28,191 nucleotides of DNA. Origin: a virus. The position numbers and the translations under genes are program-made. The stretch lies in IMG/VR virus record IMGVR_UViG_3300036845_000089, positions 1-28,191 of that record. The stretch is one strand, 5' to 3'. Under the pieces are notes generated by a model. It was not told the DNA's origin. It searched no databases and was given only the letters and a program-made list of their open reading frames with translations. Below are positions 3,050 to 28,191 of this stretch, in pieces (position 1 is the stretch's first letter; each line of letters starts with the position of its first letter).

Positions 3050-3126
3050 AGTTACCCACGTGAGTAACTGATAGCGTGGCCACCCACGGTCGTGGCGGTT
3101 GGGAGATAAGTTACTCTCAGGGTAAC

Positions 3127-3201
3127 TGGGGCCGGTTGGAAGGGTTGAACTCCCGACCTTCGGTTTACAGGACCGCTGCTCTACCACTGAGCTAAACCGG
3201 C
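3127..3201 (-). tRNA. tRNA-Thr (anticodon TGT), with encoded CCA
   Basis: A full cloverleaf can be drawn on the minus strand. The acceptor stem GCCGGTT/AACCGGC is perfect. The D arm is GCTC-AGTGGTA-GAGC, and the T arm GGGAG-TTCAACC-CTTCC has one G-U pair. The anticodon arm GCGGT-CCTGTAA-ACCGA has a G-A mismatch at its base. The anticodon (+ strand 3167-3169) reads TGT, for threonine ACA codons. The 3' CCA (3127-3129) is encoded and directly abuts a copy of the dispersed palindrome. Position 33, almost always U in tRNAs, is C here (base 3170). The tRNA could supply a codon rarer in the host. Confidence 0.85.
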
Positions 3202-3350
3202 TCATGTCGAACTCTTATTGGGTGGGCGTCACTCCATATCGTCAGATGATGGTTCAGCCACGCCCAGCAATGCCAGTTACTCTGAGGGTAAGTGCGGCGG
3301 TGCACCGCCATAAGCGTGCGCTCCCAATCGCAGATAGCTCTCAGGTCCAT
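3192..3350 (-). CDS. Possible small protein coupled to the terminase (52 aa)
   Basis: 52 aa, MDLRAICDWERTLMAVHRR..., Trp- and His-rich. The ATG (3350) lies inside the last codons of the large terminase gene in another frame, giving an 8-10 base overlap typical of translational re-initiation. There is no separate Shine-Dalgarno. Its stop (3192-3194) falls within the 5' acceptor end of the tRNA gene. Residues around YPQSN are encoded by palindrome copy 3277-3291. No family is recognised. Confidence 0.35.
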   Translation of the reverse strand: MDLRAICDWERTLMAVHRRTYPQSNWHCWAWLNHHLTIWSDAHPIRVRHEPV

Positions 3351-4945
3351 GCGAGCGCACTCGGGGCTACTCTCATTGGCCGACGTGGCCTGAGGCTCTG
3401 CACGATCCGCCCCAACACCCATGCGTATGCTCCCGCGTTCCCCGTCACCAAGCACACATATTGGAGGCAGTCCGCCACGTCCGACCAAGGGTGGAGTTTT
3501 TCTGGTATAGACTTCTGGTAGATGCCTCCGGACTTGTCTCGGTCAACCTCGAATTTATACTGCCCATTGAGCGCCGCCACGAGGGTAGGGCACCGCGTCC
3601 CATCGATCAGTATAGCGGGACCCCCAGAAATATTCCGAATGAAAAACTGCTCCACCCCCCTTAACCTTGGGTCCAAGTCGTTTGTTGGCGCTGGCTCCGC
3701 TGCAAGCCCACAATTTTTCAGAACATCAAAACTATTCCACTCAAACAGGCTATCCTTCGCCTGCCCGCTCGGGTCGCCAACGATCCCAATTGGCCTCCCC
3801 GCAAACCGAGGCCCTAAAAGCACAGGTATCAAGTTCTGCTTACAGTGCTGCTCCAACCCAATATTCTCCCCTGTCGCCCCCCTGCCGGGAACCTCCTCTA
3901 AGACCAAGAGGCGACCAGAGTGGTCGAGTTGGCATATGAGGGACCACGGCGACCTCCCGAAATCCTGCCCCACCACAAGCATGCGGCTATACACAGGCTC
4001 CAAAGGAGTGGCGCTAACATGGTAGTCATATTTGAAACTCTCCGCGAACACGGCTGCACCGGATGGATCACGCCCAAACTCACTCCACACATAACGCCTA
4101 ATGTAGTCGGGGCTTCCCACCGAGAGAAGCCTGTCGTAGTACCCCATCCCCTGCTTGAGGCGTATCGGGTCGTTCTCCGGCAGGAGAACTGTTTCGGCTG
4201 TTTGGTTAAGGTGGGGTAAATTCTCAGCACCGCTTACTTGTACTCTTATAGTGGCTCGTTCTCCCTTACTCGCGAGGATCGCTCGGTCGAACTCGCTTAC
4301 GCTGGGGTCGTCAACTTCTGCGAAGGTGGGGAATATGTGCCCACCCGGTTGATGATACACCTGCCACTGGGGCGGCGGCGCTTCGAGGAAGGACGCCCAC
4401 GGCGTTGACATTATCGGCGCGTTGGTGTCCGCCCATATCCCCGACCAGCTACAAACGCCTTGGTCATTGTTAGGATAGCGGCCCACACGACCGGCAATAT
4501 CAGAAAGAAGGTTTATGTCCGTCTCAATGCACTCGTTTATATAAGCAGCAGTGAGTTGCAGCGACAATAAGCGCTTCACGTCGTCTGGCTCGTCAAGCGG
4601 TATAAACGGCCATTCTGAGTATACGTCGCCATATTGGAGGTACAACGTGCTTTCAGAAACCCTCCAGTCGGCAATAGAGCCGAACCATCCACGTACGTCC
4701 TTAAGCACGGTGGCTTTGGCGTCCTTGAGGCTCTGTCTTACGATAGCGATGCGCGTGTAGCGTATACCATCGGCAGCAGGAGCTTGCTGCGCCATACGTC
4801 TCGCCGCCTCTACGATACAGCCGGTCGTCTTACCCGATCCCACTGGCCCCCAAATCAGTCGTCCAAACGCGTCGGATTGCAAGAAACTGGCAATGGTGGG
4901 AGGGGCGTTGTATTTCCAATGTTGTCGTACGCCGCCGCTTCTCAT
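3341..4945 (-). CDS. Large terminase subunit (ATPase and nuclease)
   Basis: This is the DNA-packaging motor: an ATPase that pumps DNA through the portal, fused to a nuclease that cuts the concatemer. From the ATG at 4945 (534 aa) the Walker A is GPVGSGKT (33-40), followed by a Walker B-like AAYINE (about 133-138). An RNase H-like nuclease follows, with GQDFGR (Asp328), VGDPSG (Asp391) and HPWSDVADCLQY (Asp489/Asp492) as likely metal ligands. Upstream in-frame starts are an ATG at 5002 and a TTG at 5026. Neither has a ribosome-binding site, both overlap a promoter-like sequence and a palindrome copy (4983-4997), and the extra residues look non-coding, so 4945 is preferred. The start remains uncertain. 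A 52-aa ORF and a tRNA follow. Confidence 0.9.
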   Translation of the reverse strand: MRSGGVRQHWKYNAPPTIASFLQSDAFGRLIWGPVGSGKTTGCIVEAARRMAQQAPAADGIRYTRIAIVRQSLKDAKATVLKDVRGWFGSIADWRVSESTLYLQYGDVYSEWPFIPLDEPDDVKRLLSLQLTAAYINECIETDINLLSDIAGRVGRYPNNDQGVCSWSGIWADTNAPIMSTPWASFLEAPPPQWQVYHQPGGHIFPTFAEVDDPSVSEFDRAILASKGERATIRVQVSGAENLPHLNQTAETVLLPENDPIRLKQGMGYYDRLLSVGSPDYIRRYVWSEFGRDPSGAAVFAESFKYDYHVSATPLEPVYSRMLVVGQDFGRSPWSLICQLDHSGRLLVLEEVPGRGATGENIGLEQHCKQNLIPVLLGPRFAGRPIGIVGDPSGQAKDSLFEWNSFDVLKNCGLAAEPAPTNDLDPRLRGVEQFFIRNISGGPAILIDGTRCPTLVAALNGQYKFEVDRDKSGGIYQKSIPEKLHPWSDVADCLQYVCLVTGNAGAYAWVLGRIVQSLRPRRPMRVAPSALAWT

Positions 4946-4997
4946 TCTTGTCGCTCGCTTCGCTCGCGGGCGCTCCGCGCCCTTACCCCGAGAGTAA

Positions 4998-5026
4998 GCC
5001 ATAGCACAGGCGTTAGGGGTTGTCAA
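4998..5026 (-). promoter_or_regulatory. Possible promoter for the large terminase
   Basis: TTGACA (5026-5021) and TATGGC (5003-4998) are separated by 17 bp on the minus strand, with a palindrome copy (4983-4997) directly downstream. The order is the same as at the portal promoter. The -10 is weaker than consensus. The -35 overlaps an opposing plus-strand TTGTCA. Confidence 0.4.
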
Positions 5027-5047
5027 GTGGGATAATGTACATATAGA
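5020..5047 (+). promoter_or_regulatory. Possible promoter for the structured RNA
   Basis: TTGTCA (5020-5025) and TATAGA (5042-5047) with a 16-bp spacer. This would start transcription near 5054, ahead of the structured region at 5111-5550. The -35 shares its bases with the divergent terminase promoter, so the two would compete. Confidence 0.35.
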
Positions 5048-5110
5048 AATGGGGTAATATTCTGGGGTCCCAGAGATTTCGTGGCTACCTAAAGGCCGCG
5101 CCCCCGGTCC

Positions 5111-5550
5111 CTGCCTTGGTCCAGATAGGGTTACCCCTAGGGTAAGAACGCCGTGTCAGTATGATGTAGCTAGGCCAGTCTGATACAACGGGGCAAGGTA
5201 AGCTACCACCAACGCGAGGAGCGGCCCTAAGGCGGGCGTGGTGAACGGTCAAGCATACAAGAGTATGCCGACGCGCTAATGTGCCTGCGAACCCCCGAGC
5301 ATGGGGAGGAATGCAGAGAGCGCGGAAGCCCTGACATGGCGACGCTACGGAGCGTTTCTGATCAGGGGCGCGGCAGAGGGTAAGATGTAGGCCGGGTGGC
5401 GCAATGTGCAGTAAGGGTTGACAACCCTAGGCTGAAGGCCACTAAATCAGGGTTATACTCTGACTTTCAACATTTGGTGGTGCGGATCGCACCTAGGTAA
5501 GAGCCCTGAGCAGACACGATATGCTGCTAATAAGAGGCAAAGCTAGGCAG
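5111..5550 (+). ncRNA. Candidate large structured RNA (~440 nt)
   Basis: No reading frame with coding character crosses this stretch, yet it is packed with perfect helices. They are: 5111-5116/5545-5550 (closes the whole element), 5153-5159/5180-5186, 5197-5200/5204-5207, 5207-5215/5236-5243 (one bulged A; shares C5207 with the previous helix) around 5224-5226/5231-5233, 5253-5258/5263-5268, 5293-5296/5303-5306, 5329-5334/5362-5367 around 5342-5346/5351-5355, 5396-5400/5438-5442 enclosing 5401-5403/5407-5409 and 5414-5419/5423-5428, 5447-5452/5458-5463, and 5479-5484/5488-5493. Many are capped by 3-5 nt loops. A promoter-like sequence lies upstream and a terminator downstream, both on the plus strand. 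It does not match the conserved cores of RNase P, tmRNA or group I introns as I remember them. Large phage RNAs of the GOLLD/ROOL kind are a possible comparison. Confidence 0.65.
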
Positions 5551-5616
5551 TGTCCATAAAAACTTACTCTCAAGGGTAAGTTGCCAATAAAAATTAAGTC
5601 TTATTGACAAAATCAA

Positions 5617-5656
5617 CCGCCGGGGAGCAATTCCCGGCGGTGTTTTACGTTGTTTT
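5617..5656 (+). terminator. Rho-independent terminator
   Basis: An 8-bp GC stem (CCGCCGGG 5617-5624 / CCCGGCGG 5633-5640) is followed by TGTTTTACGTTGTTTT. It would end the structured RNA. On the other strand it is followed by a shorter T-rich run, so it may work in both directions. Confidence 0.75.
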
Positions 5657-5659
5657 GTA

Positions 5660-5695
5660 GTCTTATTAGTCTTATCAGTCTTATTCGTCTTATCA
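5660..5695. repeat. Four tandem 9-bp repeats (GTCTTATYM)
   Basis: Units GTCTTATTA, GTCTTATCA, GTCTTATTC and GTCTTATCA follow each other without gaps. A fifth, isolated GTCTTATTG lies at 5599-5607, before the terminator. Short direct repeats beside AT-rich DNA can be replication-initiator or regulator sites. A coding role is unlikely. Confidence 0.6.
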
Positions 5696-5778
5696 GAACA
5701 GTGTTCTTGTCCTGTTTCTACCTACTTCCGAAAAAGACTAAATTCCCGCTAAGACACTGGCAGGAGAGGGCTTTTTAT

Positions 5779-5853
5779 ATGTATGAGTTAGTCATAAGTA
5801 TTATTATAATAGAGACCAAACATAGGAACCCCAATTTACCCACGGGGATTTAG
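5779..5853 (+). CDS. Possible 24-aa peptide
   Basis: ATG at 5779 with a GAGAGGG 8 bases ahead. It encodes MYELVISIIIIETKHRNPNL and four more residues, ending inside a degenerate palindrome copy. The hydrophobic core is too short to judge. It is listed because the ribosome-binding site is good, and could equally be chance. Confidence 0.2.
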   Translation: MYELVISIIIIETKHRNPNLPTGI

Positions 5854-6048
5854 GGTAACTTTTCCCCTCCCCCATGCCACCCTCTAGAAATTCCCATAAT
5901 ACTAACACTAACGTGGATTTTCCTTAATGATATCAATAGGTTACCTAGTCTTTGTTCTTGTCGTGTTCTCATAATACAACCTCGCTAACTTAAAATACAA
6001 CCTATGGTTGGTTGTGTTTATAAATAATATGGTGTATGTAAACCATCT

Positions 6049-6060
6049 TGTTTATAAACA
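6049..6060. promoter_or_regulatory. 12-bp perfect palindrome before the RMF-like gene
   Basis: TGTTTATAAACA reads the same on both strands and ends 11 bases before the start codon at 6072. The related TGTTTATAAA at 6015-6024 makes a pair of possible operator sites. Confidence 0.35.
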
Positions 6061-6071
6061 TGAGGCTAATC

Positions 6072-6458
6072 ATGGCTAAAGGATCAAATCCCTACAACGT
6101 AATGGTGCGTATGCTTATTGATGCACGACGCCTAGATCAGTGGGCACAAGATAACGGCTCGCCTAAGCAACGTGAGTTTGCAAGCAACTTGCTCAAGGTA
6201 TGTGAACACGCTACCGATACGCAAGTATTTACAACCAACCAATCCCCTGCCGTCTCAAGAGCAGGTTATGTAAGAGTGACCTTAGAGCAAATGTCGCCTA
6301 TAAGCCGCGAGAACGCCAAGCTAGAAGGCGGTGCAGCTTACTCTACTGGGTTACCTTTAGGGACCTGTCCGTATGCAAAAACTAATCCGCTCCGTGAGGC
6401 GTGGACACGCGCATGGATGGATGCTGAGAAAGAAGCTATTAACCCTGAGAGTAACTAA
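6072..6458 (+). CDS. Protein with a ribosome modulation factor-like C-terminus
   Basis: 128 aa, starting at MAKGSNPYN with GAGG six bases ahead. An upstream in-frame TTG (6048) would start inside a palindrome and is rejected. Residues 86-118 (GGAAYSTGLPLGTCPY, then NPLREAWTRAWMDAE) match the pattern of bacterial ribosome modulation factor: a Gly-rich turn, CPY, then R..W..GW-like helix. RMF binds 70S ribosomes and drives inactive 100S dimers. The phage protein has about 85 extra N-terminal residues not seen in host RMF. Its role could be to alter host translation during infection, which is inference. It heads a chain of coupled small genes, and its last codons lie in palindrome copy 6440-6454. 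Confidence 0.75.
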   Translation: MAKGSNPYNVMVRMLIDARRLDQWAQDNGSPKQREFASNLLKVCEHATDTQVFTTNQSPAVSRAGYVRVTLEQMSPISRENAKLEGGAAYSTGLPLGTCPYAKTNPLREAWTRAWMDAEKEAINPESN

Positions 6459-6559
6459 TGTTCAACTTCTCCACCCGGCGCGTCGGCGGTTTGCGCTTTA
6501 TCAAAATTGGCCGCTTTACCATCATGTTTTGTCTGTCGAGGGAGTACAAGCCGCTATGA
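6458..6559 (+). CDS. 33-aa conserved-looking basic peptide
   Basis: ATG at 6458 overlaps the upstream TAA (TAATG), and the TGA overlaps the next ATG (ATGA). The product starts MFNFSTRRVGGLRFIKIGRF and ends SREYKPL, with Arg/Lys clusters and aromatic residues. I have an impression of similar short peptides in other phages but cannot name a family. Being locked between two coupled genes argues strongly that it is translated. Confidence 0.7.
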   Translation: MFNFSTRRVGGLRFIKIGRFTIMFCLSREYKPL

Positions 6560-10134: not shown

Positions 10135-10186
10135 TGTGTCATCAACCCAGTTACCCCACGGGTAACGCAGCTTAGAAAGACCGACG

Positions 10187-15319: not shown

Positions 15320-15640
15320 ATGGCTGGGTTCACCTATAAGTCGTATAACTTCATCGACAAAGACCCGATGATTGATCAGGTCCGCACCATTGTGCAGGAT
15401 AGCCATATGACCTACAAGGCTATCTCCGAAGCGAGTGGCGTGAGTACGCAGACATTACGCAAGTGGCTGGACGGCGAGACGAAGAAGCCACAAGCCGCAA
15501 CGTTCAACGCAGTGCTGCGCACGTGTGGTTACAAGCTGAGCATCCGCCCCATCACCGAGGCTGACATAGTTGCGCCGACCATCACCATGCGCCACGTGGT
15601 GCAGATCGCCAAGTACCGCACCAAGAAGAAGCACGCTTAA
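15320..15640 (+). CDS. Helix-turn-helix DNA-binding protein (106 aa)
   Basis: The segment MTYKAISEASGVSTQTLRKW (about 30-49) is a clear Cro/C1-type helix-turn-helix, followed by LDGETKKPQAATFNAVLRTC. The tail is basic. Such proteins bind palindromic operators as dimers, so this is one candidate binder of the dispersed palindrome (inference). The TTGACA-like and palindrome elements near its own start do not identify a clear promoter. Confidence 0.75.
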   Translation: MAGFTYKSYNFIDKDPMIDQVRTIVQDSHMTYKAISEASGVSTQTLRKWLDGETKKPQAATFNAVLRTCGYKLSIRPITEADIVAPTITMRHVVQIAKYRTKKKHA

Positions 15641-26473: not shown

Positions 26474-28191
26474 ATGAGCGACATGTTGCGGTTCATGAAT
26501 ATGGTTGCACCCGTGGCTGCGGAAACGTGGTTCACAATACATCACCGCACCTTCGTGCCGGGTAGGGTGGACCCTATATTCCCCGGCAATGCGCACAAGA
26601 CAATCAAGAGCGCGATGAATGACGCTCAGTATTGGGCGCAGCGTGGCCACTGTGTTTACATATCGATGGGCATGTACCGCAACGCTGGTCAGGTGACAGG
26701 GATTTATCCGAAGGCTGACCGCTCGTACCCTAATCTTGTCGCCTGCAAGAACCTTTACATGGACGTGGACGTAAAACCAGATGCGTACCAGACCCACGAG
26801 GCTATGAAGGCCGCAGTCTTTGGCTTTCTCAAGTGGTTTGGGTTATGGCCGACCGTCATAGTCGGCAGTGGATCGGGCGGGTGGCACCTGTACTGGACCC
26901 TAAGCGCCACGGTTGACGAGCGCGAGTTCAAGAACCTCGCAGGGCGGTTGATCAATGCCGGTACAGAGTACGGCCTGCTGTTCGACAAGCAATGCTCGCG
27001 TGACGCGGTGCGGTTGCTTCGCGTGCCGGGAACATGGAACTTCAAGCACGCCACTGACGACGTGCCAGCTTCGCCCGTGACGTTGGAGCATAGCAGCGAC
27101 GGCGTTCATATCGAGATTGATGCAGGGCGTAAGCATTTGGAGCGCTGGCCTGCCGCAGTTACCCTTGGGGTAAGTCAACCCAAGACTGGTGGAGTGGACG
27201 CCCACGGCTTACCGCTTGACGAGAACGCCGACCTGACTGGGGGTATGAAGAAAGAATATGCACCCGTATCTATTGATGAAGTCGCCGTTCACTGTCCTTT
27301 TGTTAGAAATACTCTGGATGCTGGGGGAGCTAATCTGGTGGGCGACCCGCAGTGGCATACGGTCGTGGCGCTCGCGTGCCATACCACGGACCCACGGGGA
27401 ACGGCGCACCGGCTGTGCAACAAGTCGCCTTACTACACCGAGGAAGGAACTGACGACAAACTTACCACCGCGCAGTTGGCGCGGGAGCAGCGCCCGGAAA
27501 TTGGGCCGCCGAAGTGCGCCACCATCGCCATCGAGCGGGAGGAATGCAAGACGTGTCCACATTTGGCTCTTGCTACCACCCCATTGGCAGTTGGTTTTAA
27601 GCGGACCAACGGTCACGCTTATCAACCCTTCACCGCCGCCCCCGGCGCGCAAGCAATCGAACTACCTCACCCCTACTACCAAGACGCCACCAGCTTCCTG
27701 ATATTCAAGCCGCCAGTAGACAACGGTAAGGCTAACGAGACGGGCGGGCTGGTGTTTGAGTACCCATTGCTGCCGGGTGCCATGCTTGAGGTAGGGTATC
27801 CATCATACCAGTTCATCCTCAACACTATGCAGGGAGGTAAAGAAGTGACCAAGCAGTTCGATAGCTCCATCGTTGCTGACAACATAACCTTTGCTAGAGC
27901 GTTCTCCGCTGCGGGTTTGCCGCTCACAGTAAAGCCAATCGACATGCCTAGACAATTCATGACTAGCTATATCAAGCAGCTACAGGATAAGCCAGAGACC
28001 CTTATCACTGTGCCCGCCTTCGGCTGGTCGCCAGATACGAATGGAGACATTGGGTTCGCCTTCGCTGGCGAGTATGTCTCCCCTGCCGGTACGTCTAGGT
28101 GCGCTCACCCGTCAGGCGGTACGTCGAACTACAGAGTAATGGGCGACGAGCAGGTATGGAGGGATTTAGTAAAGCTTATCGTCACCCCTGA
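26474..28191 (+). CDS. AEP-type primase/helicase, 3' end beyond the window
   Basis: ATG 26474 with GGAGG; 572 codons without a stop to the right edge. Residues 95-101 (YMDVDVK, Asp97/Asp99), SGGWHLYW (His138) and DAVRLLRVPGTWNF (177-190) are the three catalytic motifs of archaeo-eukaryotic-type primases. A Cys cluster (CATIAIEREECKTCPH) lies near the middle. The visible C-terminal part (ITFARAFSAAGLPLTVKPID, then TVPAFGWSPD) resembles the start of a DUF927-type helicase domain. The full protein would then be a primase-helicase that primes and unwinds phage DNA. Residues VTLGVS come from palindrome copy 27159-27173. Confidence 0.8.
   Translation, partial: MSDMLRFMNMVAPVAAETWFTIHHRTFVPGRVDPIFPGNAHKTIKSAMNDAQYWAQRGHCVYISMGMYRNAGQVTGIYPKADRSYPNLVACKNLYMDVDVKPDAYQTHEAMKAAVFGFLKWFGLWPTVIVGSGSGGWHLYWTLSATVDEREFKNLAGRLINAGTEYGLLFDKQCSRDAVRLLRVPGTWNFKHATDDVPASPVTLEHSSDGVHIEIDAGRKHLERWPAAVTLGVSQPKTGGVDAHGLPLDENADLTGGMKKEYAPVSIDEVAVHCPFVRNTLDAGGANLVGDPQWHTVVALACHTTDPRGTAHRLCNKSPYYTEEGTDDKLTTAQLAREQRPEIGPPKCATIAIEREECKTCPHLALATTPLAVGFKRTNGHAYQPFTAAPGAQAIELPHPYYQDATSFLIFKPPVDNGKANETGGLVFEYPLLPGAMLEVGYPSYQFILNTMQGGKEVTKQFDSSIVADNITFARAFSAAGLPLTVKPIDMPRQFMTSYIKQLQDKPETLITVPAFGWSPDTNGDIGFAFAGEYVSPAGTSRCAHPSGGTSNYRVMGDEQVWRDLVKLIVTP

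Follow-up and report, generated by a model that had tools for sequence, protein, structure and literature searches.

The DNA analyzed here, a viral sequence record 28,191 bases long that we call the window, very probably encodes a noncoding RNA of about 500–550 nt with a conserved multi-domain fold, the member of an undescribed family that occurs in a single group of tailed phages. An earlier note on the sequence had proposed a large structured RNA here, possibly of a new class, and the proposal holds: homologues with conserved structure occupy this slot in related phages, Rfam has no matching family and no ORF fits. Behind a constant 5′ head, the bodies of these RNAs appear to be exchanged between phages, which is a new variation among the large ornate RNAs of phages.

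The locus and its surroundings

The RNA occupies the gap between two divergent gene blocks and runs on the + strand, away from the leftward gene of the terminase large subunit (TerL). To the left of TerL there are a portal/adaptor gene and a tRNA-Thr gene, while the replication genes to the right of the RNA include an ATPase, a VWA-domain protein and a family A DNA polymerase, as well as a SNF2-type helicase, an exonuclease and a primase-like protein. The closest cultured TerL proteins are those of Rhizobium phages (43% identity), and our guess is therefore that the host is alphaproteobacterial. The same slot, at the same position and on the same strand, was found in 16 related phages gathered by a TerL search, whose TerL proteins are 60–85% identical to that of the window (71–85% across most of the group). 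The comparison thus covers 17 distinct slots, window included.

The location given in the earlier note, 5111–5550, is correct, but the bounds are too short, since homology begins at ca 5068–5087 and the terminator ends at 5641. We infer that the RNA gene spans about 5087–5641/5645 (+). The clear terminator expected after it is indeed there, in the form of a strong GC hairpin with a T-rich stretch behind it (Table 1). The promoter-like sequence claimed before it could not be recovered, as no sigma70-type promoter was found in 4500–6500, where 2.4 would be expected by chance. The conserved 5′ block may instead be a candidate promoter or start of a non-sigma70 type; that it is a repeated phage promoter is excluded by its single copy per genome. 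Judged from these elements, rightward transcription would begin at the 5′ block and stop at the GC hairpin, giving a stable product.

Table 1. Features of the RNA and of its immediate surroundings, in window coordinates.
Feature	Position	Strand	Remarks
tRNA-Thr	3127–3201	-	ca 2 kb from the RNA
TerL gene	3341–5026	-	PHROG phrog_2, E 5e-15; divergent neighbour marking the RNA slot
Conserved single-copy 5′ block, CC..A.AT.TT..8..ACCTAAA	5068–5093 (ACCTAAA 5087–5093)	+	aligned in all 17 slots
P1 hairpin, GGTCCCT 5106–5112 with AGGGTTACC 5127–5135	5106–5135	+	loop carries invariant GGTCCA (5118–5123)
TTACCCCTAGGGTAA, dispersed operator-like palindrome	5131–5145	.	just inside the RNA
P2 pseudoknot (H-type), P2a 5151–5154/5188–5191 crossing P2b GTAGCT 5166–5171/AGCTAC 5201–5206	5151–5206	+
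Three-way junction, P3 (5207–5211/5239–5243), P4 (5213–5223), P5 (5224–5237)	5207–5243	+	in the MFE fold
P6 hairpin, GTC/GAC and GCATAC/GTATGC	5248–5272	+	by inspection
P8a-P8b-P8c stack with conserved GAAC and AGCAT	5273–5323	+	core covariation, model R1
P9a-P9b: stem, ACATGGCG/TTCTGATC internal loop, hairpin	5328–5369	+	most widely shared core element
P10, GTGGC 5396–5400 with GCCAC 5438–5442	5396–5442	+	model R2 match
3′ domain hairpins	5447–5463, 5480–5492, 5509–5528, 5562–5581	+
AGTCTTATT-type direct repeats, period 9, AT-rich, iteron-like	5597–5695	+	adjoin the 3′ side of the RNA, outside it
Intrinsic-terminator-like GC hairpin with T-rich tail	5616–5641	+	candidate transcript 3′ end; identical in L008

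No ORF of at least 60 aa overlaps 5111–5550, and none of at least 20 aa on the + strand is common to the window and L008, the locus most closely related to it; the indels between these two are mostly not multiples of three. The statement that no protein gene fits here is thereby upheld. With Rfam 15 (copy current on 30 Sep 2026), the whole window gave only the tRNA at gathering score, and the region 4980–5800 gave at E≤10 only weak unrelated matches around 5564–5722. The loci of the relatives, searched at gathering and at permissive thresholds, returned only tRNAs and sub-threshold sRNA/miRNA chance hits. The models for RNase P, tmRNA, 6S, group I–II introns and HEARO have no match in the RNA of the window, which agrees with the earlier note for the first three and for the introns, and the novelty of the RNA survives the Rfam check. 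Compared at the DNA level with cultured phages and plasmids, the sequence gave short chance hits or none, and no equivalent of the RNA is described in the literature searched.

A few other features of these loci can be recorded here. A promoter-like sequence for leftward transcription of TerL is located at ca 5003–5028 (- strand; TTGACA, 17 nt, TATRNT-like) and is kept in L008, L004 and L007 by inspection of the aligned gap. HNH-type endonuclease-like genes, recognized by sequence motif, separate TerL from the RNA head in L026 (3103–3672) and L031 (3391–4038), a placement that resembles homing elements. Just 3′ of the RNA, L009, L025, L026, L004, L007, L034 and L006 carry short ORFs that encode small basic proteins ending, for example, in RRVKKGRKFIRRITYK; in most cases a very small conserved ORF of the kind MNREQEELDRYDALQRWLDAQ comes next. 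In the window and L008 the small basic ORF was not seen. Four of the proteins were searched against Pfam, with no match. The small basic protein is a possible RNA-binding partner of the RNA.

Five of the six GTCTTAT sites of the window lie within the repeat region after the RNA, where the GC content drops to 34–41%. Similar repeat clusters are present in the L008 contig, and AGTATTA repeats in L005/L015. AT-rich clusters of AGTCTTATT or AGTATTA type also lie 3′ of the slot in L016 (3968–4367) and L005 (3173–3534). Such clusters downstream of the slot are a candidate replication origin.

The palindrome TTACYC-N3-RRGTAA has 75 strand matches in the window, where 0.3 would be expected, and its ca 37 sites are scattered throughout, for example at 838–852, 1936–1950, 3111–3125, 4983–4997, 5131–5145, 10151–10165 and 27159–27173, and often at gene junctions. 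Its sites number about 50–64 per contig in L008, L005 and L011 and far fewer in L009, L035 and L036, and variants such as TCACTC are found in L026 and L035. This distribution suggests an operator/stoperator system that spans the genome and uses a different site from phage to phage. A small HTH protein at 15320–15640 (+), a PHROG transcriptional regulator (E 1e-7) with Pfam HTH_3 just below the cut-off, is a candidate for the protein that reads it.

Covariation, held-out detection and distribution

Base pairs were counted in alignments of three to four sequences each, which were hand-curated to the structure and padded with N; the held-out model searches described below serve as an independent check on the bias that this may introduce. 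In the core at 5273–5391, compared between the window, L008 and L035, all of the 23 pairs can form in every sequence (100% paired) and 14 are changed on both sides. None of 500 shuffles reaches this covariation, and sliding the pairing partner by 1–3 columns leaves 32–60% paired and 1–3 double-changed pairs. A second alignment without the window (A10; L008, L035, L034 and L003) has 16 pairs, nine of them double-changed, and is likewise 100% paired. The P2 pseudoknot covaries over two body types (window, L008, L004, L007), with double changes in half of its ten pairs and 100% pairing; in the window and L008, P2a is lengthened by GTGTCAG 5153–5159 pairing with CTGATAC 5180–5186. G-U pairs occur several times in the helices of the core, P2 and A10, and because these would be A-C on the - strand, the RNA must be read from the + strand.

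Covariance models, calibrated briefly, lead to the same result. The model R1, built from the window and L008, recovers the held-out L035 (E 2e-15) and also L034 (E 9e-4), whose body is of another type (D), both in the right slot and on the right strand. The model R2 was built from L008, L035, L034 and L003, with the window left out, and matches the window at 5324–5446 with an E-value of 5e-7. The model R3, which is a sequence-only version of the alignment of R2, fails to find the window, and its detection therefore rests on base pairing.

Other elements were compared one by one. For the three-way junction, inspection of L008 and L035 shows unlike stems in an unchanged topology, and in P6 the GTC/GAC pairing is kept in L008 while the inner stem differs. 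For the multi-branch junction suggested at 5396–5442, the base pairing is real, but the inner hairpins belong to an insertion at 5401–5437 that is specific to this phage and lies inside the conserved P10; it comprises ca 35 nt (34 nt in the model match) and forms two extra hairpins. The 6-bp closing helix that had been suggested (presumably CTGCCT 5111–5116 with AGGCAG 5545–5550) fared less well, as five of six pairs form in L008 and there is no compensatory change. In the 3′ domain, 5469–5561 is nearly identical between the window and L008.

The dense helices noted earlier on the + strand are seen also in the folding energy. The region 5090–5600 has an MFE of −199.2 kcal mol−1 (z −3.9), which none of 100 shuffles equals, and its - strand folds with z −2.6. 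Segments of 200 nt inside 5071–5570 have z-values of only about −1.2 to −2.3 until they take in the last 3′ hairpins, to which the strong score is due; the folding of a 420-nt piece is modest (z −1.9 for the window). Folding energy alone is weak evidence for structure, and at the level of sequence it is the covariation, not the energy, that proves it. The MFE fold was rejected as the true structure, since a fold made to contain the conserved helices is less stable by 14 kcal mol−1.

Neither R1 nor R2 detects the RNA in the 68 TerL loci of more distant relatives (L054–L121, TerL identity at most 51%); in their 511 kb, R1 gives nothing at E≤1, and the head motif is absent in the 15 of these loci that were checked. 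A scan of 2.9 million viral contigs with the 5′-block pattern returned this phage group, two unplaced contigs (L041, L051) and L040, the last being a chance hit in coding sequence. The P9 motif, run against all viral contigs, gave six matches outside the group that lack the head and are missed by R1 and R2, and these were taken as chance. Among 84,980 bacterial and archaeal genomes, the head pattern gave nine scattered matches, none backed by R2 in a consistent position, and the TerL search found no prophage-type relatives in bacterial genomes. As judged by these searches, the family is restricted to a single group of tailed phages.

A constant head and exchangeable bodies

The first ca 80 nt of all 17 RNAs form a constant head, in which ACCTAAA is followed 29–30 nt later by GGTCCA. 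The latter is present in all slots at constant spacing and is usually placed in a hairpin loop, and the former is intact in 16 of the 17. The stem of this hairpin, P1, varies in sequence among the phages (its covariation across types was judged by eye only). The loop UGGUCCA is self-complementary around one U-U mismatch and could thus pair with itself, so that one may speculate on loop-loop dimers formed through the head.

Behind the head there are at least six types of body that are mutually unalignable: A (window, L008, L035, L030), B (L009, L025, L031, L026), C (L004, L007), D (L003, L034), E (L032) and F (L027, L028), with L006 and L053 standing apart. What ties B, C, E and F to the RNA of the window is only the head or the pseudoknot; the link does not extend to the fold as a whole. 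The first ca 80 nt can be aligned in nearly all 17, while farther 3′ the sharing is patchy: A and C have the pseudoknot in common, A and D have P9–P10, and the middle of L006 is that of L026. We read this pattern in the sequences as mosaic exchange of RNA modules between phages. The natural variation at the slot reveals which part of the RNA is fixed and which is free, and it offers ready-made swaps.

Possible roles and comparison with known RNAs

On what the RNA does, the reading that we favour, though tentatively, is action in trans: during infection it would serve as a folded RNA body, as has been proposed for GOLLD and ROOL (PMC12286853). The head would then be a constant shared interface, whose UGGUCCA loop could pair between molecules, and the exchangeable body would bind or sequester a host component. 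This would explain why the body turns over fast beside a strongly conserved terminase.

It is unlikely, in our estimate, that the RNA is instead a cis-acting leader of the rightward early operon that controls elongation or translation, by HK022 put-like antitermination or as a long riboregulator. The RNA does stand first in the rightward gene block, with the operator-like palindrome just inside it and, in types B, C and D and in L006, a small basic ORF within a few hundred nt downstream. However, a strong terminator follows it in the window and L008, where no such ORF was seen, and no alternative anti-terminator helix was seen either. Known put elements, moreover, need far less than 500 nt of pseudoknotted structure.

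Somewhat less likely still is the more specific idea that the interchangeable bodies, swapped or evolving fast by recombination on the constant head, serve as an RNA weapon or decoy against host defences or rival phages, with the self-pairing GGUCCA loop possibly building multimers.

We give a low probability to an origin-associated RNA, that is, a pre-primer or replication regulator for the neighbouring iteron-like, AT-rich region, by analogy with ColE1 RNA II. RNA II is similarly structured and close in length (ca 550 nt), and the RNA of the window also lies next to a candidate origin, given the AGTCTTATT repeats at 5597–5695, the clusters in L008 and L005/L015 and the GC content of 34–41%. 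Several observations do not fit: in the window the terminator comes before most of the repeats, short ORFs separate the RNA from the repeat region in relatives, no antisense partner was seen, and the phage has its own family A DNA polymerase and primase-like protein.

A packaging RNA, working as part of the terminase motor like the pRNA of phi29, is very improbable. Both are phage RNAs, and that of the window is encoded beside packaging functions, always next to TerL and only in phages with closely related TerL proteins. On the other hand, the bodies are unalignable between phages whose TerL proteins are 71–85% identical, and the RNA has no Rfam match. The phi29 pRNA is ca 120–174 nt long and bound to the portal in phi29-like phages, the only phages for which, to our knowledge, pRNA has been described; the RNA of the window is about three times longer and multi-domain, and the TerL beside it falls in phrog_2. 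We therefore do not place it with the pRNAs.

Finally, it is hardly credible that the head is a DNA element (promoter, pac or cos) and the rest fast-drifting intergenic DNA with chance hairpins, since the fixed ACCTAAA-GGTCCA spacing and the modest energy of the 420-nt fold would suit this, but drift is not expected to leave compensatory changes or to make detection of the window depend on structure, and for the body this refutes it; the head may be a DNA element as well.

We return to the large ornate RNAs, of which we know only a handful in phages, none with an assigned function. ROOL is marked by its homo-oligomeric nanocage. The suggestion that the present RNA could be GOLLD or ROOL is not borne out, as the window has no match to either at the gathering threshold, nor has 4980–5800 at E≤10, although Rfam includes profiles of ROOL, GOLLD and OLE (PMC12286853). 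The tRNA gene 2 kb away, which had been taken as a sign of such RNAs, does exist, but the argument is weak, because it is a single tRNA on the other strand; among the relatives, one locus examined has any tRNA (L031), away from the RNA, and none lies near the slot in L002–L011. ROOL is a large, highly structured and pseudoknotted noncoding phage RNA without assigned function, solved for one of 659 nt (PMC12286853). The RNA of the window is likewise large, structured, pseudoknotted and phage-borne, and differs in its length of ca 500–550 nt, in having no Rfam match and in not lying near a tRNA island. GOLLD, often longer than 800 nt, has one universally conserved region, at the 3′ side, and a variable remainder (PMC12286853). 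Here, too, one region is constant and the rest variable, but the constant part is the ca 80-nt 5′ head, the RNA is shorter and Rfam finds no match. A cultured member of the family would make the purpose of giant phage RNAs directly testable. By its sequence, the RNA is plausibly a large ornate phage RNA in the general sense, being long and noncoding, with covarying structure and pseudoknots.
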